This document shows, piece by piece, positions 7,053-15,117 of a DNA stretch of 64,000 nt. Origin of the DNA: Archangium lipolyticum (lineage in GTDB: Bacteria > Myxococcota > Myxococcia > Myxococcales > Myxococcaceae); contig NZ_JANKBZ010000021.1 in NCBI RefSeq assembly GCF_024623785.1, positions 124,001 through 188,000 of the forward strand, given 5' to 3'. The first letter of the stretch is position 1. Each line of letters opens with the position of its first letter. Under the pieces are notes generated by a model. That model made no database searches, was not told the origin of the DNA, and was given only the letters and a program-made list of their open reading frames with translations. Made by a program: the position numbers and the translations under genes.

Positions 7053-7664
7053 TCATGCCCAGGAGAGCTCGAATTCGGTGTCGAGCCGCGCGAGTGGCCG
7101 TGCACGCACCGTCAGTCCTGGCACCTTGGCGATCTCGAACGAGCCCTGCAGCGAGCCCTCCGTATACGCGTGGGGCAGGAAGTCGCGCGTGAAGCGGATG
7201 ACGGCGTTGGTGTGCCCCGTCCACCGCACCGTGCACTCCCCCGCGGTCGTGTTCATCCGGTAGGCCATCGGCAGGGTGTCGAGCAGCCGCCGGGGTTGCC
7301 CGACGACCAGCCGAAGCATGACCCGGCCCATCGTGGAGTCGGCGAAGTTCCTGGCGGACAGATAGCCCATCTGCCGCATCACCTCGTTGAAGTCCCGGCT
7401 GTCGCTGCTCAGGAGTCTCGCCCCGGTGTAGGACATCCGCAGCAGGGTGCCGAGCGGGTAGCTGAAGAGATCCAGGAACTGTTTCTCGCCACTCTCCTCC
7501 AGGCAGCGCCGCACCGTGGACTCATCCCCCAGCTGCCGCACGACTTCCAGCACGCCATTGAGGAAGAGGCCACGCGTTGTGTCCGTGGGCGTCACGTAGG
7601 ACAGCAGCTGCTGTAGCTCCTCCTCCGAGCCGAGTGCGTGTGAACCGCCTGAGTCATCCCCCAT
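7053..7664 (-). CDS. DUF2378 (TIGR02265) Myxococcus-family protein at the end of the nap electron-transfer operon
   Basis: About 203 residues. The motif TRGLFLNGVLEVV (about 25-37) and the later DFNEVMRQMGYLSARNFADSTMGRVM segment layout identify the myxobacterial paralogous family TIGR02265/DUF2378, whose function is unknown. The start was chosen at 7664 because GGGAGAGG lies just upstream; the frame is also open to an ATG at 7742. It follows the NrfD-type gene on the same strand, so it is probably co-transcribed with the respiratory genes. Proteins of this family often sit beside kinases, so a regulatory role is possible but unsupported here. Confidence 0.7.
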   Translation of the reverse strand: MGDDSGGSHALGSEEELQQLLSYVTPTDTTRGLFLNGVLEVVRQLGDESTVRRCLEESGEKQFLDLFSYPLGTLLRMSYTGARLLSSDSRDFNEVMRQMGYLSARNFADSTMGRVMLRLVVGQPRRLLDTLPMAYRMNTTAGECTVRWTGHTNAVIRFTRDFLPHAYTEGSLQGSFEIAKVPGLTVRARPLARLDTEFELSWA

Positions 7665-7770
7665 GGCCTCTCCCATGTCGCGAGTCTGTCGCTCCTCCCG
7701 GGGAGGGCGCCACCCCGGATCGGGAGAGGATCCAGTGGTCATCAGTTCGCGACAAGGAGGTTGTACGAGC

Positions 7771-9054
7771 CTATGCGGCCTGCTTCGCTTCCGGGCCTTC
7801 TGTGCCGTGCGGGCCCTGGCCGTGCTCGGCGTGCGAGGCCGCGATCTGGCCGCTCAGCACTGGCAGTGCCACCTTCACCGCCACCGTCAGCACCATCAGC
7901 CCGAAGGCCCAGATGCCCGCGGTGATCTTCCACTCGGTGATGGTGGGCACGTACTCCACCAACTCGTGCAGGGTGCTCGGGACGAAGCCGGGGATGATGA
8001 GGCCCATTCCCTTTTCGATCCACACACCCGCGAACGCCAGCGCGCACGCCAGGTTGAGCAGCCACACGTGACGCCGCGTGGCAGGCAGGTGCACCACCAC
8101 CGCCGAGGCGATGTTGAGCGCCACCGCCGTCCAGATCCACGGCACCAGCGCGTGGTGCCCGTGTGAACCGAAGAACAGGTAGCGCACCGCCGTGGCGTGC
8201 GTCCCTCCCGTGTAGAACGCCGTGAACAGCTCCGAGCCCAGCATGAACAGGTTGAGCAGCACCGTCACCCGCATCACCGACATCAGCGTGCGCAGCGGCC
8301 CTTCTCCAATGGGCAACCCCGTGAAGCGGCGGATGACCTGTAGCAGCACGATGACGAACGCCGGGCCCGTGATGAACGCCGACGCGATGAACCGCGGTGC
8401 CAGCAGCGCCGAGTTCCAGAACGGCCTTCCCCCCAGCCCGCTGTAGAGGAACGCCGTCACGCTGTGGATGCTGATGGCCCAGAAGATGGAGAGGAAGACG
8501 AACGGCAGGTACCACTGCTTGCGCGGCTTGCGCCCCAGGAAGCGCATGTAGATGAGATAGCCGCAGATGTGCAGGTTGATGAGCAGGTAGCCGTTCAGCA
8601 CCACCACGTCCCAGGTGAGCATCGAGATGGGCCAGTTGAACCGTCCAATCCCTGGCATCAGGTGCCACGCCCGCTCGGGGTGCCCCATGTCCACCACGAT
8701 GAACAGCAGGCACACGAAGATCGCCGCCACCGCGAGCAGCTCGCCTATCAGCGTGACGTCGTGCATCTCATGGTCGTGGTACAGGTACGCGGGGATGACC
8801 ATCATCACCGCGCCCGCCGCCAGCCCCACCCCGAAGGTGAAGTTGGCGATGTACAGGCCCCAGGACACGTGGTCGCTCATCCCCGTGAGCGCCATGCCCT
8901 CGGCCAGCTGGTGCGCATAGGCGTTGGCGCCCACCAGGGCGATCGCCGAGAGCACCGTCATCCACGTGTAGAAGCGCCAGCTCCCATCCGTGCTCATCCA
9001 GAGCAGCCGGCCGAGGAACCGCGGGTAGTCGAGCAGGTGACGGGAAGCAGCCAT
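7771..9054 (-). CDS. NrfD/PsrC-type polytopic quinol-interacting membrane protein
   Basis: A 427-residue membrane protein with about ten hydrophobic helices, for example VGLAAGAVMMVIPAYLY (about 76-92) and LLAVAAIFVCLLFIVVDM. NrfD/PsrC proteins anchor Fe-S and cytochrome subunits and exchange electrons with menaquinol; the segment DMGHPERAWHLMPG is typical. The C-terminal tail is hydrophilic, about 30 residues. It starts three bases after the stop of the Fe-S protein gene, so the two are co-translated. With no NapC or NapH in the window, this is the best candidate for the quinol-oxidising subunit serving NapA. Other partners cannot be excluded. Confidence 0.88.
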   Translation of the reverse strand: MAASRHLLDYPRFLGRLLWMSTDGSWRFYTWMTVLSAIALVGANAYAHQLAEGMALTGMSDHVSWGLYIANFTFGVGLAAGAVMMVIPAYLYHDHEMHDVTLIGELLAVAAIFVCLLFIVVDMGHPERAWHLMPGIGRFNWPISMLTWDVVVLNGYLLINLHICGYLIYMRFLGRKPRKQWYLPFVFLSIFWAISIHSVTAFLYSGLGGRPFWNSALLAPRFIASAFITGPAFVIVLLQVIRRFTGLPIGEGPLRTLMSVMRVTVLLNLFMLGSELFTAFYTGGTHATAVRYLFFGSHGHHALVPWIWTAVALNIASAVVVHLPATRRHVWLLNLACALAFAGVWIEKGMGLIIPGFVPSTLHELVEYVPTITEWKITAGIWAFGLMVLTVAVKVALPVLSGQIAASHAEHGQGPHGTEGPEAKQAA

Positions 9055-9057
9055 GGC

Positions 9058-9963
9058 TCACTTGTCGAAGAAGTAGAAGAAGCGTGGCCGCGTCCCGAGC
9101 TCCTCTTTGAGCACGAAGACGCGCTTGTTCTCGAGCACCCAGCGGATGGGGCTCTTCGGATCCAACAGGTTGCCGAACACCCGCGCCCCCGTGGGGCATG
9201 CCTCCAGGCACGCCGGCAGCCGCCCCGCTCGCGTGCGGTGCAGACAGAAGGTGCATTTCTCCACCACCCCCTGCGGGCGGATCCGGTTGGAGAGGTACCC
9301 CTGGTCCGGGTTGATCTCCTCGGGCGGGATCTCCGGCTTCGCCCAGTTGAAGCGCCGCGCGTGGTAGGGGCACGCCGCCTCGCAGTACCGGCAGCCGATG
9401 CACCAGTTGTAGTCCACCACCACGATGCCGTCCTGCTCCTTCCACGTGGCCTGCACCGGGCACACCTTCACGCACGGCGCGTTGTCGCACTGGTGGCACT
9501 GCACCGGCAGGTAGTACTTCCCCTCGGCCGGTACCGGATGGTCGTAGTTCGCGTTGCCGTGCTCCAGATCCAGGCTGCCCTGCTGCATCTCCAGCACCCG
9601 GATGTAGGAGTTCCCCGTGCGCCGGTCGTGGTTGTTCTCCTGGTGGCACGCCTCGGCGCACTTCCGGCAGCCGATGCAGATGCTCAGGTTGAGCGCGTAC
9701 GCGAAGGACACGCCCTCCTGCGGCGGCAGCGCCTGGATGTCCACGTCGCGGCCGTACTTCCGCTTCGTCTCTTCCTTCAGGTGGAGGAGCACCCGCCCCA
9801 GCTCGTCACGCGTCAGCTCCTTGTAGTGCTTCTGCAGGAACTCATCGACGCTCAGGTCCTTCGACCACTCGGTGAGCGGTGCCATCGCGTGCGCGAAGGC
9901 CGCGGCCCCCAGCGTGGCTCCGGCACCCTTCATCATGGTACGGCGGGAGACGATGTCACTCAT
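9058..9963 (-). CDS. Tat-exported four-cluster [4Fe-4S] ferredoxin subunit (NrfC/DmsB type)
   Basis: A 301-residue protein. The N-terminus carries a twin-Arg signal (SRRTMMKGAGATLGAAAFA). Four Cys clusters follow: CIGCRKCAEACHQ (96-108), CHQCDNAPCVKVCP (156-169), CIGCRYCEAACP (188-199) and CTFCLHRTRAGRLPACLEAC (237-256). This is the DmsB/NrfC/PsrB arrangement that links a membrane subunit to a periplasmic partner. Its start overlaps the end of the cytochrome gene by eight bases and its stop is three bases before the NrfD-type start, so all three are a single translational unit. Inferred role: relay of electrons from menaquinol to the nap cytochromes. Confidence 0.9.
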   Translation of the reverse strand: MSDIVSRRTMMKGAGATLGAAAFAHAMAPLTEWSKDLSVDEFLQKHYKELTRDELGRVLLHLKEETKRKYGRDVDIQALPPQEGVSFAYALNLSICIGCRKCAEACHQENNHDRRTGNSYIRVLEMQQGSLDLEHGNANYDHPVPAEGKYYLPVQCHQCDNAPCVKVCPVQATWKEQDGIVVVDYNWCIGCRYCEAACPYHARRFNWAKPEIPPEEINPDQGYLSNRIRPQGVVEKCTFCLHRTRAGRLPACLEACPTGARVFGNLLDPKSPIRWVLENKRVFVLKEELGTRPRFFYFFDK

Positions 9964-10555
9964 GCCCTTGCGCCTCTTTCGTGTCCGGCTCGCCGTGGGC
10001 GGACGGGTTGCGCGGAGGCATCACCGGATGCGCCCCCGCGTACTTCGGCGTGTGCGGGTCGTGGCAGCTCACGCAGTTGTTCCTCATGCGGTCTCCCCGC
10101 GACAGATCCCAGTACCCCGTCATCCCCCCGTGCGCCCCCGCCTTGAAGTCGCGGTACTGCGGGCCGTGGCACTGCGCGCACAGCGTCACCACCTCCGTCA
10201 TCGGCAGTGGCTCGCCCGTGGCCAGGTGCAGCGTGCGCGGCTCCCGTGCCTGGTGACACGAGGTGCAGGCGAGCTCTCCATGGCGGAATCGCAGGCCCTG
10301 GTGGAACTCCTTCAGCTCCTCGGGCCGCGAGGGCATGGGCTTCGTCTCACGCAGCGAGTGGCAGCTCTCGCACGACACGCGAAGCGGCCGGCCCAGCGCG
10401 TCCTTCTGGTCGCTCTCGACGGAGGTGAGCTTCGCCGGTTGGTGGAGGATTTCCTTGCCCGTCGGTGCTCCCGGAGGCGGTTGGAAGCTCACGGGTTGAT
10501 CCTTCCCGCAGCCGCCAAGGGCGAGCATCGCGGCGACGAGCGCCGGGCGCATCAT
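9956..10555 (-). CDS. tetraheme c-type cytochrome lipoprotein
   Basis: A 199-residue protein with signal peptide ending in lipobox LGGC (Cys at about residue 16) and four heme-binding motifs: CESCH, CTSCH, CAQCH and CVSCH. The frame continues upstream to 10732, but the ATG pair at 10555/10552 begins the lipoprotein signal. Predicted to be a periplasm-facing, lipid-anchored electron carrier in complex with the Fe-S and NrfD-type proteins, resembling NrfB-C-D modules except for four rather than five hemes. First gene of the leftward operon, divergent from napD. Confidence 0.85.
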   Translation of the reverse strand: MMRPALVAAMLALGGCGKDQPVSFQPPPGAPTGKEILHQPAKLTSVESDQKDALGRPLRVSCESCHSLRETKPMPSRPEELKEFHQGLRFRHGELACTSCHQAREPRTLHLATGEPLPMTEVVTLCAQCHGPQYRDFKAGAHGGMTGYWDLSRGDRMRNNCVSCHDPHTPKYAGAHPVMPPRNPSAHGEPDTKEAQGHE

Positions 10556-10788
10556 TCTGTAGAGGTGGTTCTCCACGGGGACCTGCGCAAAGCAGCGTCC
10601 GTGCCAGCACGCCCCGCCCCTGTGTGTCCGATGGAAACTCGGGAGGTGCCCTCGCTTGCCCGCGAAAAACCTGCATTGCTCAAACAACTTTACGCGCAGG
10701 CTTTGCGCGCGCACCCGGGGGATGAGGGGCACGCCAGGGTGGTCCGCCTCTTGCTCCTGGGGACCGCGCCCCCATGGACGGAGCCTGT
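10556..10788. promoter_or_regulatory. divergent promoter region between the two nap operons
   Basis: A 233-base gap between the cytochrome gene (leftward) and napD (rightward). The centre (about 10670-10695) is AT-richer than the rest, with CAAACAACTTTACG, so the promoters probably lie there. I looked for an FNR-type half-site pair and a sigma-54 GG/GC element and found neither convincingly. Shared control of both operons is likely from the layout alone. Confidence 0.45.
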
Positions 10789-11034
10789 ATGCCCATCAGT
10801 AGCCTGGTGCTCACCCTCGATGCGTCGCCCGACTCGAGGGCGCTCGCGCTCTCAGCGCTCGCTCGCGACCCGCGCATCACCCTGGGCCCGCCCGTGGAGG
10901 GGCGCTGGCTGCCGGTGGTGACCGAGACCGCCAGCCCCTACGAAGGTGAGGAGCTCGCCGAGTCCCTGCGGGAGTTGGAAGGAGTGAGCTTCGTGGACGT
11001 GGTGATGGTGGATTTCTCCGAGGAGGAGCGCTGA
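10789..11034 (+). CDS. napD: NapD-type chaperone for NapA signal peptide
   Basis: An 81-residue protein beginning MPISSLVLTLD with GGAG five bases upstream of the ATG. NapD proteins are small ferredoxin-fold chaperones that bind the NapA Tat signal and hold it until the molybdenum cofactor is inserted. The size, the fold-like pattern (two beta-alpha-beta halves, with VSFVDVVMVDF as last strand) and the position immediately before napA support the call. Sequence identity signals are weak in this family, so context carries most of the weight. It ends three bases before the napA start. Confidence 0.8.
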   Translation: MPISSLVLTLDASPDSRALALSALARDPRITLGPPVEGRWLPVVTETASPYEGEELAESLRELEGVSFVDVVMVDFSEEER

Positions 11035-11037
11035 GCC

Positions 11038-13458
11038 ATGGATCGTCGGGACTTCCTCAAGGGTTCGGCCATGACGGCGGCGACGCTGGCCGCGAGCCGT
11101 CTGGCATATGGCCAGGACAGGGCGGCCGCGGAGCCGCCGAGCACTGCCCGTCAAGGGGGTGACGTGCAGTGGAACAAGGCTCCCTGCCGCTTCTGCGGCA
11201 CCGGCTGCCACGTCCAGGTGGGCGTGCAGAACGGCAAGGTGGTGGCCATCGCGGGCGACCAGAAGGCTCCGGTGAACAAGGGCCTGCTGTGCGTGAAGGG
11301 CTACCACGTGGGGCTCGCCCTCTATGGACAGGACAGGCTCACGACGCCGCTCCTTCGTAAGGGCGACAAGCAGGTGCCCATCAGCTGGGAGGAGGCGATC
11401 GACATCATCGCCCGCCGCGTGCTGAAGGACCCCAAGGGCTTCGCCGTCTACGGCAGCGGCCAGTGGACCATCCCCGAGGGTTATGCCGCCTCGAAGTTCG
11501 TCAAGGCCGGTCTGGGCACGCACAACATCGACGCCAACGCGCGCCTGTGCATGGCCTCGGCGGTGACGGGCTTCCTCGCCACCTACGGTGTGGACGAGCC
11601 CGCCGGTTGCTATGACGACCTCGACGCCTGCGACGTGCTCATCACCTGGGGCAACAACCCCGCGGAGATGCACCCCGTCCTCTTCTCGCGCGTCATCGAC
11701 CGGCGCTCGCGCGGCGAGAAGGTCACCCTCATCGATATCGGCACGCGGAAGACGCGCACCAGCGGGTTCGCCGACCACTCGCTGCGCTTCAAGCCGAACT
11801 CGGACCTGGCGATCGCCTGCGGCATCGCCCACCTGCTGGTGGAGAATGGCACCTACGACAAGGCCTTCGTCGAGGCCAACTGCGCCTTCCGCGCCTCCAG
11901 CACTCCGCCCACGCTCGAGGGCAAGGCCATCTCCTTCGAGGAGTACCGCGAGCTGCTGAAGCCCTATACCCCCGAGAAGGTGGAGCAGCTCTCGGGCGTG
12001 TCCCAGAAGGACCTGCGGATGCTGGCCGAGCTGTTCGGCCGGAGGGACATCCGCATCACCAGCATGTGGTGCATGGGGCCCAACCAGCACACCCGGGGCA
12101 CGGCCATGAACAGCCTGCTCCACGGGCTCCACCTGCTCAGCGGGCACTTCGGCAAGCCGGGGGACGCGCCCACCAGTCTCACCGGCCAGCCCTCCGCGTG
12201 TGGCACCGTGCGCGAGGTGGGCACGCTCTCCCACGCGCTCCCCGGCGGCCGCGTGGTGGCCAAGGCCGAGCACCGCGCCCAGATGGAGGAGATCTGGAAC
12301 GTCCCCGCTGGCCGCGTCTCCGACAAGATTGGCTACCACACCGTGGAGATGTGGAATCGCTTCTCCACGCCCACCGACCAGGGGGGCGATGTCCACACCC
12401 TCTGGGTCCAGGTCACCAACCCCGCGCAGAGCCTCCCCAATACGCACAAGCTGGTGGACCCCAGCCGGAAGCTCGCGGACAAGTTCCTCATCGTCTCGGA
12501 CGTCTACCCGACCGCCACCACGCGCGTCGCCGACCTCGTGCTGCCCTCCGCCATGTGGGTGGAGAAGAACGGCATGGTCGGCAACTCCGAGCGCCGCACC
12601 CAGCAGTGGTTCAAGCTGGTTCCGCCCCCCGGGCAGGCCCGCGATGACGCCTGGCAGCTCATCTCCGTGGCCCACCGGCTGCTCGAGCTCGGCTTCGCCG
12701 GAATGAAGGACAAGGACGGCCGCTTCCTCTTCGAGGTGAAGGGGAAGGATGGCAAGTCGGTGCCCATCTGGGAGTGGGCGCACTACTACGACGTCAACGT
12801 CGACGAGCACCTCTTCGAGGAGTACCGGAAGACGACTCGCATCAAGCACAAGGACCTGGCGCCCTATCAGGAGTACGTGAAGGCGCGCGGCCTGCGCTGG
12901 CCCGTGGTGCAGCAGCCGGACGGCAGCTGGCGCGAGACGCGGTTCCGCTTCTCCGGCTTCGATGATCCGTATGTGAAGAAGGGCCGGGACATCCAGTTCT
13001 ACCACTCGACCTCGCACGACGATCGCGCGCAGATCTGGTTCCAGCCCTACGAGTCTCCTCCCGAGTCCCCTGACGCCGAGTACCCCTTCTGGCTGTGCAC
13101 CGGCCGCGTCATCGAGCACTGGCACACGGGCTCGGTGACCATGCGCATCCCGCAGCTCCGGCGCGCCATGCCCCAGGCCTACGTGGAGATGAACCGCGCC
13201 GATGCCCGGAAGCTCGGTGTGGACAACGGGGACCTGGTGACGGTGGAGACCCGCCGCGGGAAGCTCGACCTGCCCGTGTGGGTCGGCGGCCGCGGAGAGC
13301 CCGTCGAGGGCTCGCTCTTCGTCCCGTTCTTCGACGAGCGGCTGCTCATCAACGAGCTCACGCTCGACGCGCATGATCCGTTCTCCAAACAGCCCGACTA
13401 CAAGAAGTGCGCGGCTCGTGTGCGACGGCGTGAGCAGGTCGCGGAGAAACAGGGATGA
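11038..13458 (+). CDS. napA: periplasmic nitrate reductase catalytic subunit NapA
   Basis: An 806-residue protein. The Tat signal RRDFLKGS is at the N-terminus. The [4Fe-4S] motif is CRFCGTGC (51-58) with the fourth Cys in GLLCVKGY. The motif ARLCMASAVTGF holds the Cys expected to ligate molybdenum, and GxN-type motifs (ITWGNNPAEMHP) bind the bis-MGD cofactor. The length matches NapA (about 800-830). It reduces nitrate to nitrite in the periplasm. The ribosome-binding site GGAGGAG lies just upstream. The stop overlaps the napB start (ATGA). Confidence 0.95.
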   Translation: MDRRDFLKGSAMTAATLAASRLAYGQDRAAAEPPSTARQGGDVQWNKAPCRFCGTGCHVQVGVQNGKVVAIAGDQKAPVNKGLLCVKGYHVGLALYGQDRLTTPLLRKGDKQVPISWEEAIDIIARRVLKDPKGFAVYGSGQWTIPEGYAASKFVKAGLGTHNIDANARLCMASAVTGFLATYGVDEPAGCYDDLDACDVLITWGNNPAEMHPVLFSRVIDRRSRGEKVTLIDIGTRKTRTSGFADHSLRFKPNSDLAIACGIAHLLVENGTYDKAFVEANCAFRASSTPPTLEGKAISFEEYRELLKPYTPEKVEQLSGVSQKDLRMLAELFGRRDIRITSMWCMGPNQHTRGTAMNSLLHGLHLLSGHFGKPGDAPTSLTGQPSACGTVREVGTLSHALPGGRVVAKAEHRAQMEEIWNVPAGRVSDKIGYHTVEMWNRFSTPTDQGGDVHTLWVQVTNPAQSLPNTHKLVDPSRKLADKFLIVSDVYPTATTRVADLVLPSAMWVEKNGMVGNSERRTQQWFKLVPPPGQARDDAWQLISVAHRLLELGFAGMKDKDGRFLFEVKGKDGKSVPIWEWAHYYDVNVDEHLFEEYRKTTRIKHKDLAPYQEYVKARGLRWPVVQQPDGSWRETRFRFSGFDDPYVKKGRDIQFYHSTSHDDRAQIWFQPYESPPESPDAEYPFWLCTGRVIEHWHTGSVTMRIPQLRRAMPQAYVEMNRADARKLGVDNGDLVTVETRRGKLDLPVWVGGRGEPVEGSLFVPFFDERLLINELTLDAHDPFSKQPDYKKCAARVRRREQVAEKQG

Positions 13459-14267
13459 GCGCCGGGGGCGAACAGTCGAGTGGGCTCGGGGCCCGCTGGC
13501 TCCAGGTGGGGGCCGCCGTGGCGGTGGCGCTCGCGGCCACCGGGTACTTCGCGGGTCTCCGCGCCCCGGAGATGCCCGAGCGTCCGGCCGCCTCCGACCC
13601 GCATGCGCAACGCGCCGAGCGCGCTCCGGGCTACAGCGAGCTTCGCGAGCAGCGGCGCGGTGACAACGCGCGCATGTACGAGGGCGCCATCGCCTCGCTG
13701 GCGGAGGCGGACTTCCCGGTGAAGCCCCTGCCCGTGGCCACCCCCGCGCTGCGCGCCGAGGCCCTGACCCAGCGGAAGGCCCACCGCGCCTACGACGGCG
13801 CGCCGCCCACGATTCCTCATGAGATCGACCAGCGTGAGGTCCCCGGTTGTCTGGCCTGCCATGGCGAGGGCATGAAGCTGGGCAACCGCGTGGCTCCGAA
13901 GATCAGCCACCCGCCTTACCAGAGCTGCACGCAGTGCCACGTGGTGGGGGAGTCGCCCCGCCCGCTGGCCCAGTACAAGGACGTCCCGGGGAACCGTTTC
14001 GTCGGATTGGCTTCGACTGGGAATGGCGCTCGGGCCTGGCAGGGGGCTCCTCCGACCCTGCCTCACCCCACGCTCATGCGGACCGACTGCACGAGCTGCC
14101 ACGGGCCCAAGGGCCTCCCCGGGCTGCGGACCTCGCACCCGGAGCGGCAGAACTGCCAGCAGTGCCATGGGTCTTCCGCGGTGCTCGACCAGCGCATCCC
14201 GGAGGCCTCGGGGGCAGGGGAGTCCGGACCGCCTCCCGGTGGCGTGGCGATGGAGGCGAGGCCTTGA
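13455..14267 (+). CDS. napB: NapB-type electron-transfer cytochrome with four heme motifs and N-terminal membrane anchor
   Basis: A 270-residue protein. A hydrophobic helix at 16-35 without an obvious cleavage site suggests membrane anchoring. The NapB core is recognisable: RAYDGAPPTIPH (111-122), CLACH (132), SHP, CTQCH (158) and GNRFVGL. A second, similar block follows: QGAPPTLPHP (196-205), CTSCH (212), TSHPERQ and CQQCH (234). Textbook NapB is diheme, so this is a tandemly extended, tetraheme version. It delivers electrons to NapA. It overlaps napA (ATGA) and the ferredoxin gene (TTGA). Confidence 0.85.
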   Translation: MSAGGEQSSGLGARWLQVGAAVAVALAATGYFAGLRAPEMPERPAASDPHAQRAERAPGYSELREQRRGDNARMYEGAIASLAEADFPVKPLPVATPALRAEALTQRKAHRAYDGAPPTIPHEIDQREVPGCLACHGEGMKLGNRVAPKISHPPYQSCTQCHVVGESPRPLAQYKDVPGNRFVGLASTGNGARAWQGAPPTLPHPTLMRTDCTSCHGPKGLPGLRTSHPERQNCQQCHGSSAVLDQRIPEASGAGESGPPPGGVAMEARP

Positions 14268-14785
14268 GCTCCCAGGCTGGAATCAGCCGCCGTGCGCTCC
14301 TCGGGTTCCTCCGGAGGAAGGAGGAGCCCGTGTCTTCTCCCGCGCCTGTTCGTGCTCCTTCGCCCGCCGTGTCCGAGCCCGCGCCGGGGGCGGGCTTCTC
14401 GCTCGAGGCGTTCTATTCCTCTCGTGCGCGGTCGGGTGAGGCGACCGGGACGAGCCTCCCGGTCTTCTCCCTCCGCGAGGGGCTCGCCATTCCCCAGGAC
14501 GGTGTCAGCCGCATCGGGATGGCTCCGCTCGCGCCTCCTCCCGTTGCTCCCGTCGCGGGGATGACCGTGCGCGTCCGGCCCCAGCTCTGCCTCGCCTGGC
14601 AGGGCTCGTTCTGCAGCACCTGCTCCGAGCGCTGTCCCGTCGAGGGCGCCCTCGCCGTCGAGCTGGGCCGCCCTCGCGTCGTGGAAGAGCGGTGCAACGG
14701 CTGTGGTCTCTGCGTCCAGGTGTGCCCGGCTCCGCTCAACGCCTTCGAGTTCCTTCCCTCCCGACAGCAGGTCTCCTCTTCATGA
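14264..14785 (+). CDS. napF: NapF-like ferredoxin
   Basis: About 173 residues from a TTG at 14264, with GGAGG seven bases upstream; TTGA overlaps the napB stop. The N-terminus, SRRALLGFLRRKEE, resembles the NapF/NapG start. A Pro/Ala-rich middle is followed by two Cys groups: an irregular one (C in PQLCLAW, then CSTCSERCP) and a classical [4Fe-4S] motif CNGCGLCVQVCP. NapF proteins are cytoplasmic ferredoxins that help NapA maturation. The family has up to four clusters; only two are visible here, so this is a reduced form. No shorter start gives a better leader. Confidence 0.7.
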   Translation: MSSQAGISRRALLGFLRRKEEPVSSPAPVRAPSPAVSEPAPGAGFSLEAFYSSRARSGEATGTSLPVFSLREGLAIPQDGVSRIGMAPLAPPPVAPVAGMTVRVRPQLCLAWQGSFCSTCSERCPVEGALAVELGRPRVVEERCNGCGLCVQVCPAPLNAFEFLPSRQQVSSS

Positions 14786-15117
14786 CAGCAGGTCTCCGCC
14801 TCGCGAACGCCCCCCCCGAGGACCCGTCTCTTCCCCAGTTGCAGGACGCGATCCTCGACGCGGAGACCCTGGAGCAGCTCTTCCGTGACATCCAGCGCTG
14901 CACCGTGGTGAGCGAGGTGCTGCTCAAGGGCGGCGCCCTCGCCATGGCCTCCGAGAAGTCCGTTCCGCTCGACGAGGCCCTGGCCGCGCTCCGCGAGGCG
15001 CGGGTGCTCGGCGTGCAGATCCGCTACTGGTACGACGGGGCCCATTGGTGGGACACCCTCATGCGCACCCCGCAGGGGATCCGGCTCATCCGCATCCAGC
15101 ACCGGCTGGCCGGGTAG
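14782..15117 (+). CDS. uncharacterised small protein ending the nap operon
   Basis: A 111-residue soluble protein starting at an ATG that overlaps the ferredoxin stop (ATGA, 14782-14785). No Cys-cluster, heme motif or membrane segment. The centre is helical (LEQLFRDIQRCTVVSEVLLKGG) and the C-terminal half has a distinctive aromatic pattern, IRYWYDGAHWWDTLM. I do not recognise the family. Strict coupling to napF suggests a role in Nap assembly or regulation. It ends seven bases before the convergent yjjX stop. Confidence 0.75.
   Translation: MTAGLRLANAPPEDPSLPQLQDAILDAETLEQLFRDIQRCTVVSEVLLKGGALAMASEKSVPLDEALAALREARVLGVQIRYWYDGAHWWDTLMRTPQGIRLIRIQHRLAG

Follow-up and report, generated by a model that had tools for sequence, protein, structure and literature searches.

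Results

Two divergent operons at a nap locus of Archangium lipolyticum

We analysed a stretch of 64,000 nucleotides from Archangium lipolyticum (positions 124,001 to 188,000 of contig NZ_JANKBZ010000021.1; hereafter the window), in which eight genes very probably form one system for periplasmic nitrate respiration. The genes are tightly spaced and arranged in two divergent operons: napD, napA, napB, a napF-like gene and an orphan gene run rightward, and the genes for a lipocytochrome, a ferredoxin and an NrfD-type membrane protein (together referred to as the NrfD-type module) run leftward from a shared control region (Table 1). Stop and start codons overlap between napA and napB and between napF and the orphan, and also between napB and napF if napF starts at a TTG codon. 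A first-pass annotation had described both operons and their separation by 233 bases in these terms, and had noted that the cluster lacks NapC and NapH; the gene content agrees with it on each of these points. The DUF2378 gene that follows nrfD (7053-7742) was considered as a further member, and was left out of the system because it was recovered in only one of 12 fetched module regions (L037).

Table 1. Genes and control elements of the nap locus, in positions of the window
Feature	Position	Strand	Basis
napD, maturation chaperone	10789-11035	+	translation, homologues
napA, catalytic subunit, divergent NapA clade	11038-13458	+	TIGR01706 score, solved relatives, tree
napB, tetraheme, two tandem NapB-like units	13455-14267	+	Pfam NapB, four CXXCH, duplication test
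napF-like ferredoxin, two cluster motifs	14264-14785 (start codon uncertain)	+	profile matches, alignment
orphan, conserved family of ~100 residues, 3' end of nap operon	14782-15117	+	50-row alignment
tetraheme c-type lipocytochrome, first gene of leftward operon	9956-10555	-	four CXXCH, lipobox LGGC
Tat-exported four-cluster ferredoxin, DsrO/QrcC/TtrB/PsrB-like	9058-9963	-	SRRTMMK, 16 cluster cysteines
NrfD/PsrC/DsrP-type integral membrane quinol dehydrogenase subunit	7771-9054	-	Pfam NrfD, NCBIfam DsrP
shared divergent control region, 233 bases	10556-10788	none	between first start codons of both operons
sigma-54-like promoter TGGCAC-N5-CTGC facing the module	10592-10606	-	pattern in 12/12 family regions
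sigma-54-like promoter TGGTCC-N5-TTGC facing nap	10740-10754	+	pattern in 12/12 family regions
palindrome GCGCA-N5-TGCGC between the promoters, candidate enhancer site	10694-10708	none	by eye in alignment

Proteins of the NrfD-type module

Haem counts and gene arrangements were taken from 93 loci, namely the window, the best 80 loci of the database scan described below and 12 fetched regions (the contigs of three are already among the 80). The lipocytochrome has four haems in 82 of the 85 loci where it was found. Conservation reaches 95% or more across 35 or 36 aligned rows for the haem motifs, the extra histidines and nearly all ferredoxin cysteines; over 35 rows each, this holds for the four CXXCH motifs and four further histidines of the lipocytochrome and for 15 of the 16 cluster cysteines of the ferredoxin. 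The latter protein, whose twin-arginine translocation (Tat)-like motif lies close to the N-terminus, scores 185 bits with the NCBIfam DsrO model (below the cut-off of 200), and its best solved relative by sequence is PsrB (2vpw_B, E 1e-38).

The membrane subunit scores 129.9 bits with the Pfam NrfD model (cut-off 25.8) and 426 bits with the NCBIfam equivalog DsrP, above the cut-off of 350. Its AlphaFold model (mean predicted local distance difference test, pLDDT, 82.4) aligns with ActC of alternative complex III at Z 35.3-36.0 (root-mean-square deviation, rmsd, 3.1-4.3 over 375-385 residues) and with PsrC in its menaquinone-bound form at Z 20.0 (rmsd 3.1 over 240 residues). Cytochrome bd chains reach Z 18.4-22.1, and only the ActC match stands out. 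The protein is thus predicted to have the fold of ActC and PsrC. Across 39 aligned rows Y68, D122, S144 and D149 are conserved at 90% or more, and E347 and K348 are invariant. The DsrP1 residues listed first by Calisto and Pereira, which we take to be the quinone site, are Tyr52, Asp106, Ser124 and Asp129, and the gate residue is Lys329 (PMC8076601). The four residues of our protein are spaced much like the DsrP1 set (54/22/5 versus 54/18/5), a resemblance of spacing and not of a DsrP alignment; the correspondence of K348 to Lys329 comes from the ActC alignment and not from one with DsrP. The DsrP label, which refers to sulfate reduction, passes its cut-off on a Nap-linked NrfD. The same label stands in the record of a Flammeovirga plasmid (L213 11728-12945), and further nitrate-linked genes may likewise be misnamed.

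A distinctive NapA, a tetraheme NapB and a conserved small protein

The six best solved relatives of NapA by sequence are all periplasmic nitrate reductases, and alignments with solved relatives indicate that the protein keeps the cluster motif CRFCGTGC and the Cys-Met pair after NAR (NAR.CMAS). NapB carries four CXXCH motifs in the window and hence departs from the usual diheme NapB; four haems are found in 75 of the 77 loci with the protein, one of the others having three and one five. When NapB was cut by hand into halves, these aligned with a score of 109, against a maximum of 80 in 2000 shuffles that kept the haem motifs. Because the halves outscore every shuffle, NapB is a tandem duplication of a diheme unit.

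The orphan, of about 100 residues, was recovered from 59 loci, and five residues (Q79, Y82, W89, D91 and R104) are invariant in 50 aligned rows. A search of these 50 rows against Pfam gave no family and one chance-level match. The predicted model is alpha/beta and confident (mean pLDDT 84.2), and comparison with solved structures gave no clear relative (best Foldseek E 0.015; best VIA-align Z 6.9, a value common for unrelated folds). The orphan is a new conserved protein family, encoded at the 3' terminus of nap operons in Myxococcota, Planctomycetota and Verrucomicrobiota; from this terminal position we suggest a role in maturation or assembly.

The module and NapA co-occur and adjoin across phyla

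NapA and NrfD were each searched for in 195 genomes of the phylum, of which 96 belong to the family of A. lipolyticum. The first-pass annotation had pointed out that finding the module in relatives lacking napA would refute its reading. At family level the two parts stay together: NapA of this clade and NrfD of at least 85% identity occur in the same 12 of the 96 genomes, with no genome holding either alone (Fisher p 1.6e-15, kinship ignored), and in one genus five of the 27 genomes have the pair, while 22 lack both parts. The two operons adjoin in all 12 (the window and 11 fetched regions). Modules of this type that are more distant, with about 40-49% NrfD identity, do occur without Nap. Four genomes of the family (G066, G068, G106 and G107) have only a distant NrfD of about 45% identity; G066 also encodes a NapA with 50% identity, on a different contig from its NrfD. 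This NapA (L042 2194-4853) is close to the Flammeovirga type and has a NapB-like neighbour, with no module on its contig. In a genome of another family (G187, 98% complete), nrfD, napD, napA, napB, napF and the orphan lie on one strand, the stop of nrfD overlapping the start of napD; the contig ends inside nrfD.

When GTDB contigs were scanned with an NrfD alignment of nine rows, at least 585 stretches were obtained, 561 of which were confirmed, and the best 80 (61-95% identity) were kept. A NapA of this type (at least 63% identity) lies in the flank of 69 of these best 80 NrfD loci: 25 in Myxococcota, 22 in Planctomycetota, 14 in Verrucomicrobiota, three labelled Pseudomonadota, one each in Acidobacteriota and Sumerlaeota, and three unassigned. 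Eight of the remaining 11 end at a contig edge on the usual nap side (L118, L135, L147, L158, L162, L177, L178 and L180). All three module genes accompany NapA in 69/69 loci, NapB is also present in 64, and the orphan in 51 of those 64; in L164 (Rubritalea profundi) NapA and the genes around it could be read only in pieces. These linkage counts exclude a chance adjacency of the two operons. The linkage persists through several gene orders. Of 83 loci with both genes, 66 are divergent (three counted twice) and 15 have nrfD upstream on the same strand; NapA lies upstream in L163, and the arrangement is convergent in L152, whose enzyme has only 34% identity and was not counted as Nap. In Flammeovirga kamogawensis (Bacteroidota), a plasmid carries napD, napA (49% identity), tetraheme napB, a tetraheme lipocytochrome, the ferredoxin and nrfD in one run.

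Phylogenetic trees were made for NapA and NrfD. In a NapA tree of 48 rows, which are a selection, 37 of the 38 NrfD-linked sequences form one branch (SH-aLRT, Shimodaira-Hasegawa-like approximate likelihood ratio test, 99), separate from that of six canonical NapA (99); the NapA of Flammeovirga is placed with that of G066, outside both. In an NrfD tree of 61 rows, made by a quick method and with some long branches, 39 of the 40 Nap-linked sequences fall within a branch of 44 rows (100), together with five of unclear context. Eleven of the 14 non-Nap modules are in another branch (100), two group with Flammeovirga and one (L101) stands alone on a long branch; octaheme-linked relatives fall between the Nap-linked and the non-Nap branches. 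The module type is thus general, with one subclade tied to Nap. The canonical NapA of four loci (L046, L047, L048 and L050) were considered as members and rejected, since the fetched regions hold no homologue of the window's module, NapB or NapD. These NapA score above 1200 bits with TIGR01706, and gene calling found no haem protein within about 8 kb on each side, an observation of orphan NapA in its own right.

Other candidate electron donors of Nap

The first-pass annotation had also asked for NapC or NapH elsewhere in the genome. NapH has no match there at E 0.001 (the E. coli control scored above the cut-off). The genome encodes two proteins of the NapC/NrfH family PF03264 (43 and 58 bits), and both are read as NrfH because each gene directly precedes one for NrfA. 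With these two NrfHA pairs (L001 and L002, on contigs C9 and C7 of the window genome, G000), the path from nitrate to ammonium is complete on paper. A bc1-type cytochrome b was found by neither PF13631 nor PF00033. Alternative complex III is represented by three matches to ActD (PF11821), none of them on the nap contig; they lie on contigs C2, C10 and C16, and the genome may thus have as many as three loci for alternative complex III.

The other genomes are similar in this respect. In the 12 family genomes with the system, 14 of 15 PF03264 proteins lie beside NrfA (the exception being L199 in G138); no NapH match exceeds the cut-off of 213, and nine of these genomes have no match at all. In G187, neither PF03264, NapH nor, by two Pfam models, a bc1-type cytochrome b was found. 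Among 63 genomes with the module, 50 were chosen before any result and checked for PF03264 and NapH; many of them are metagenome-assembled genomes (MAGs). PF03264 has no match in 22 of the 50, including the isolates Haloferula rosea, Haloferula sp. BvORR071 and Rubritalea profundi, and 49 have no NapH at E 1e-30 or better. In these 22 genomes, the window genome and G187, both cytochrome b models lack a match in 15/24 (the window genome, G187 and 13 of the 22), and ActD has a match in 24/24.

The shared control region

The two operons start from one control region, in which a sigma-54-like pattern faces each of them. The pattern is found six times in the whole window against 3.0 expected, and the evidence for promoters therefore lies in its conservation and not in the match itself. 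Of 62 divergent loci, 14 have the pattern facing nap, 22 have it facing the module and 13 have it in both directions, simple shuffles giving about 0.5 loci per single direction. Most loci of other phyla lack it, and the 12 family regions are not independent of one another.

Discussion

Based on the comparative evidence presented here, we consider it highly probable that a Cbc4/DsrOP-like module with an NrfD-type quinol dehydrogenase substitutes for NapC/NapGH and that the two operons are one respiratory system. This replacement had been proposed in the first-pass annotation, and the linkage, the co-occurrence and the absence of NapH and of a dedicated NapC all support it. A 2026 review distinguishes four nap operon types (napEDABC, napDAGHB, napCMADGH and napAGHBFLD), all of them with NapC or NapGH (PMC13223375). 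The system of the window has in common with these NapD, NapA, NapB, a NapF-like ferredoxin and periplasmic nitrate reduction, but differs in having no NapC/NapGH, an NrfD-type quinol dehydrogenase, a NapB that is tetraheme by duplication, and the orphan family. It departs from the NapC-dependent type (napEDABC), as the only two PF03264 proteins of the genome are those preceding NrfA, and from the NapGH-dependent type (napDAGHB), as the genome has no NapH match. It is best read as a fifth nap architecture found in several phyla, in which the novelty is the conserved combination of known parts (Nap and an NrfD-type module), together with the duplicated NapB and the new small protein.

In the proposed scheme, the integral membrane NrfD would oxidise menaquinol and pass electrons to the periplasmic four-cluster ferredoxin, and from there to the membrane-tethered tetraheme lipocytochrome. 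The latter would reduce tetraheme NapB, which would hand the electrons to the 4Fe-4S cluster and the molybdenum site of NapA for the reduction of nitrate to nitrite; the two NrfHA pairs encoded in the genome would probably then convert nitrite to ammonium. NapD and NapF would serve maturation, as the orphan probably does too. More tentatively, this multi-phylum architecture may conserve energy at the oxidation of quinol, NrfD moving charge while the electrons travel via ferredoxin, lipocytochrome and NapB to nitrate; we regard this as a serious possibility on which we would not count. To our knowledge, periplasmic nitrate reduction via NapC is held to be non-electrogenic.

Parts of the module have counterparts in other respiratory systems. 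For instance, the Cbc4 complex (CbcSTU) of Geobacter sulfurreducens likewise consists of one c-type cytochrome, a ferredoxin and a membrane subunit and has no catalytic subunit, a likeness seen in gene content; we take CbcS to be tetraheme and the membrane subunit to be NrfD-like. Unlike the module studied here, which is tied to Nap, Cbc4 is linked to metal respiration, and its membrane subunit is called a b-type cytochrome in a figure legend (PMC11434368). With DsrJOP of the DsrMKJOP complex (PMC8076601), the module shares an NrfD that scores above the DsrP cut-off and a ferredoxin whose best NCBIfam match, below its cut-off, is DsrO; it differs in having a tetraheme lipoprotein instead of triheme DsrJ, and Nap as its partner. 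Neither DsrM nor DsrK was noticed by eye among the open frames near the cluster, where no search for them was made. NrfABCD and SirCD also use a ferredoxin and NrfD pair that carries quinol electrons to a periplasmic reductase, whereas the partner here is a molybdoenzyme with a tetraheme NapB. SirCD also offers a precedent for such a dehydrogenase substituting for a member of the NapC family, though reportedly not with nitrate as the acceptor (PMC11434368).

Several observations weigh against the replacement of NapC by this module, and they are best considered with the explanations that they favour. The module might supply the pool of periplasmic cytochromes at large, in the manner of Cbc4 or SirCD, with Nap as one client among others such as NrfA or extracellular acceptors. 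The same module type occurs without a NapA match in 14 fetched regions of the phylum and is thus not Nap-specific by nature, and module relatives adjoin octaheme cytochromes, possible nitrite reductases, in three loci (L049 920-10428 in G016, L083 848-5066 in G018 and L167 708-5931). The last of these, in which the octaheme cytochrome stands in place of Nap, is among the best 80, as are two loci of unclear context (L152 and L153). In G016 the module relative lies behind an apparent full napDAGHB operon and before the octaheme cytochrome; G016 and G018 were set apart from the system for these octaheme neighbours. Moreover, SirCD replaces CymA for several acceptors in Shewanella, reportedly not for nitrate (PMC11434368). 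However, the Nap-linked subclade stands beside this NapA in 69 of the best 80 loci, is present or absent together with it, has a control region in common with nap and branches apart from most non-Nap modules, which makes a general supply of the pool unlikely, if by no means negligible. Alternatively, Nap could be fed by alternative complex III or a cytochrome bc complex, leaving the module another task such as the reductive maturation of NapA. Alternative complex III is the main other donor candidate left by our searches for NapH, PF03264 and bc1-type cytochrome b, ActD having been found in 24/24 genomes tested. NapC-free routes of this kind are on record, as Qcr feeds Nap in Campylobacter jejuni (PMC6195509) and a Rieske/cytochrome b pair in the nap cluster of Caldithrix abyssi has been proposed to do so (PMC5317091). 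Against this, bc1-type cytochrome b is absent from most of the genomes searched for it, and no ActD match lies on the nap contig, while the module is beside nap in every family genome having it; we therefore judge this route improbable.

The remaining two explanations are weaker still. If an NrfH protein encoded elsewhere also served Nap, nothing would have been replaced; the genome does have two proteins of the NapC/NrfH family, to which CymA, serving many acceptors in Shewanella, also belongs (PMC11434368). PF03264 is present in 28 of the 50 module genomes, where all but one score 65 bits or less, and in G222 the protein is NapC-like at 222 bits. One of the 50 genomes (G243) has a NapH above the cut-off, matches below it occur in three family genomes (G099, 109 bits; G126, 114 bits; G115, 26 bits), and some of the absences may be assembly gaps, given the many MAGs. 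This explanation is nonetheless very improbable, since each PF03264 protein of the window genome is paired with NrfA and neither G187 nor 22 of the 50 module genomes have any. Finally, the enzyme might be no nitrate reductase, the whole unit respiring another oxyanion. NapA scores 851 bits with NCBIfam TIGR01706, below the equivalog cut-off of 930.55, and has its own branch in the tree. Its closest solved relatives and the motifs kept from them argue the other way, as do the homologues of napD, napB and napF that accompany it, and we hold this to be the least probable explanation of all.

Replacement of NapC/NapGH by the NrfD-type module thus accounts best for the conserved neighbourhood, one part of which has been sighted before. 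The Phycisphaerales MAGs OFTM8 and OFTM33, which are loci L115 and L125 of our survey, were reported to carry, downstream of Nap, an NrfD-type cluster that might take part in respiratory electron transfer; the section devoted to them contains no claim of NapC replacement and no wider survey (PMC10732223). Apart from this partial sighting, we found no description of the architecture in the open-access literature that we searched.

Nap has so far been read as fed by NapC, by NapGH or, in Epsilonproteobacteria, by Qcr, and a fifth nap type changes the genome-based prediction of nitrate respiration. The type is seen in many Myxococcota, Planctomycetota and Verrucomicrobiota, and once each in Acidobacteriota, in Sumerlaeota and on a plasmid of Bacteroidota. 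Meanwhile, the automatic DsrP label falls on nitrate-linked genes. Because NrfD subunits are proposed ion translocators (PMC8076601), while Nap driven by NapC or NapGH is held not to conserve energy (PMC6195509), cultured Haloferula, Rhodopirellula or Archangium now offer a direct test of the old question of whether energy can be conserved in Nap respiration. Altogether, our results point to a way of respiring nitrate that is widespread and has drawn little notice.

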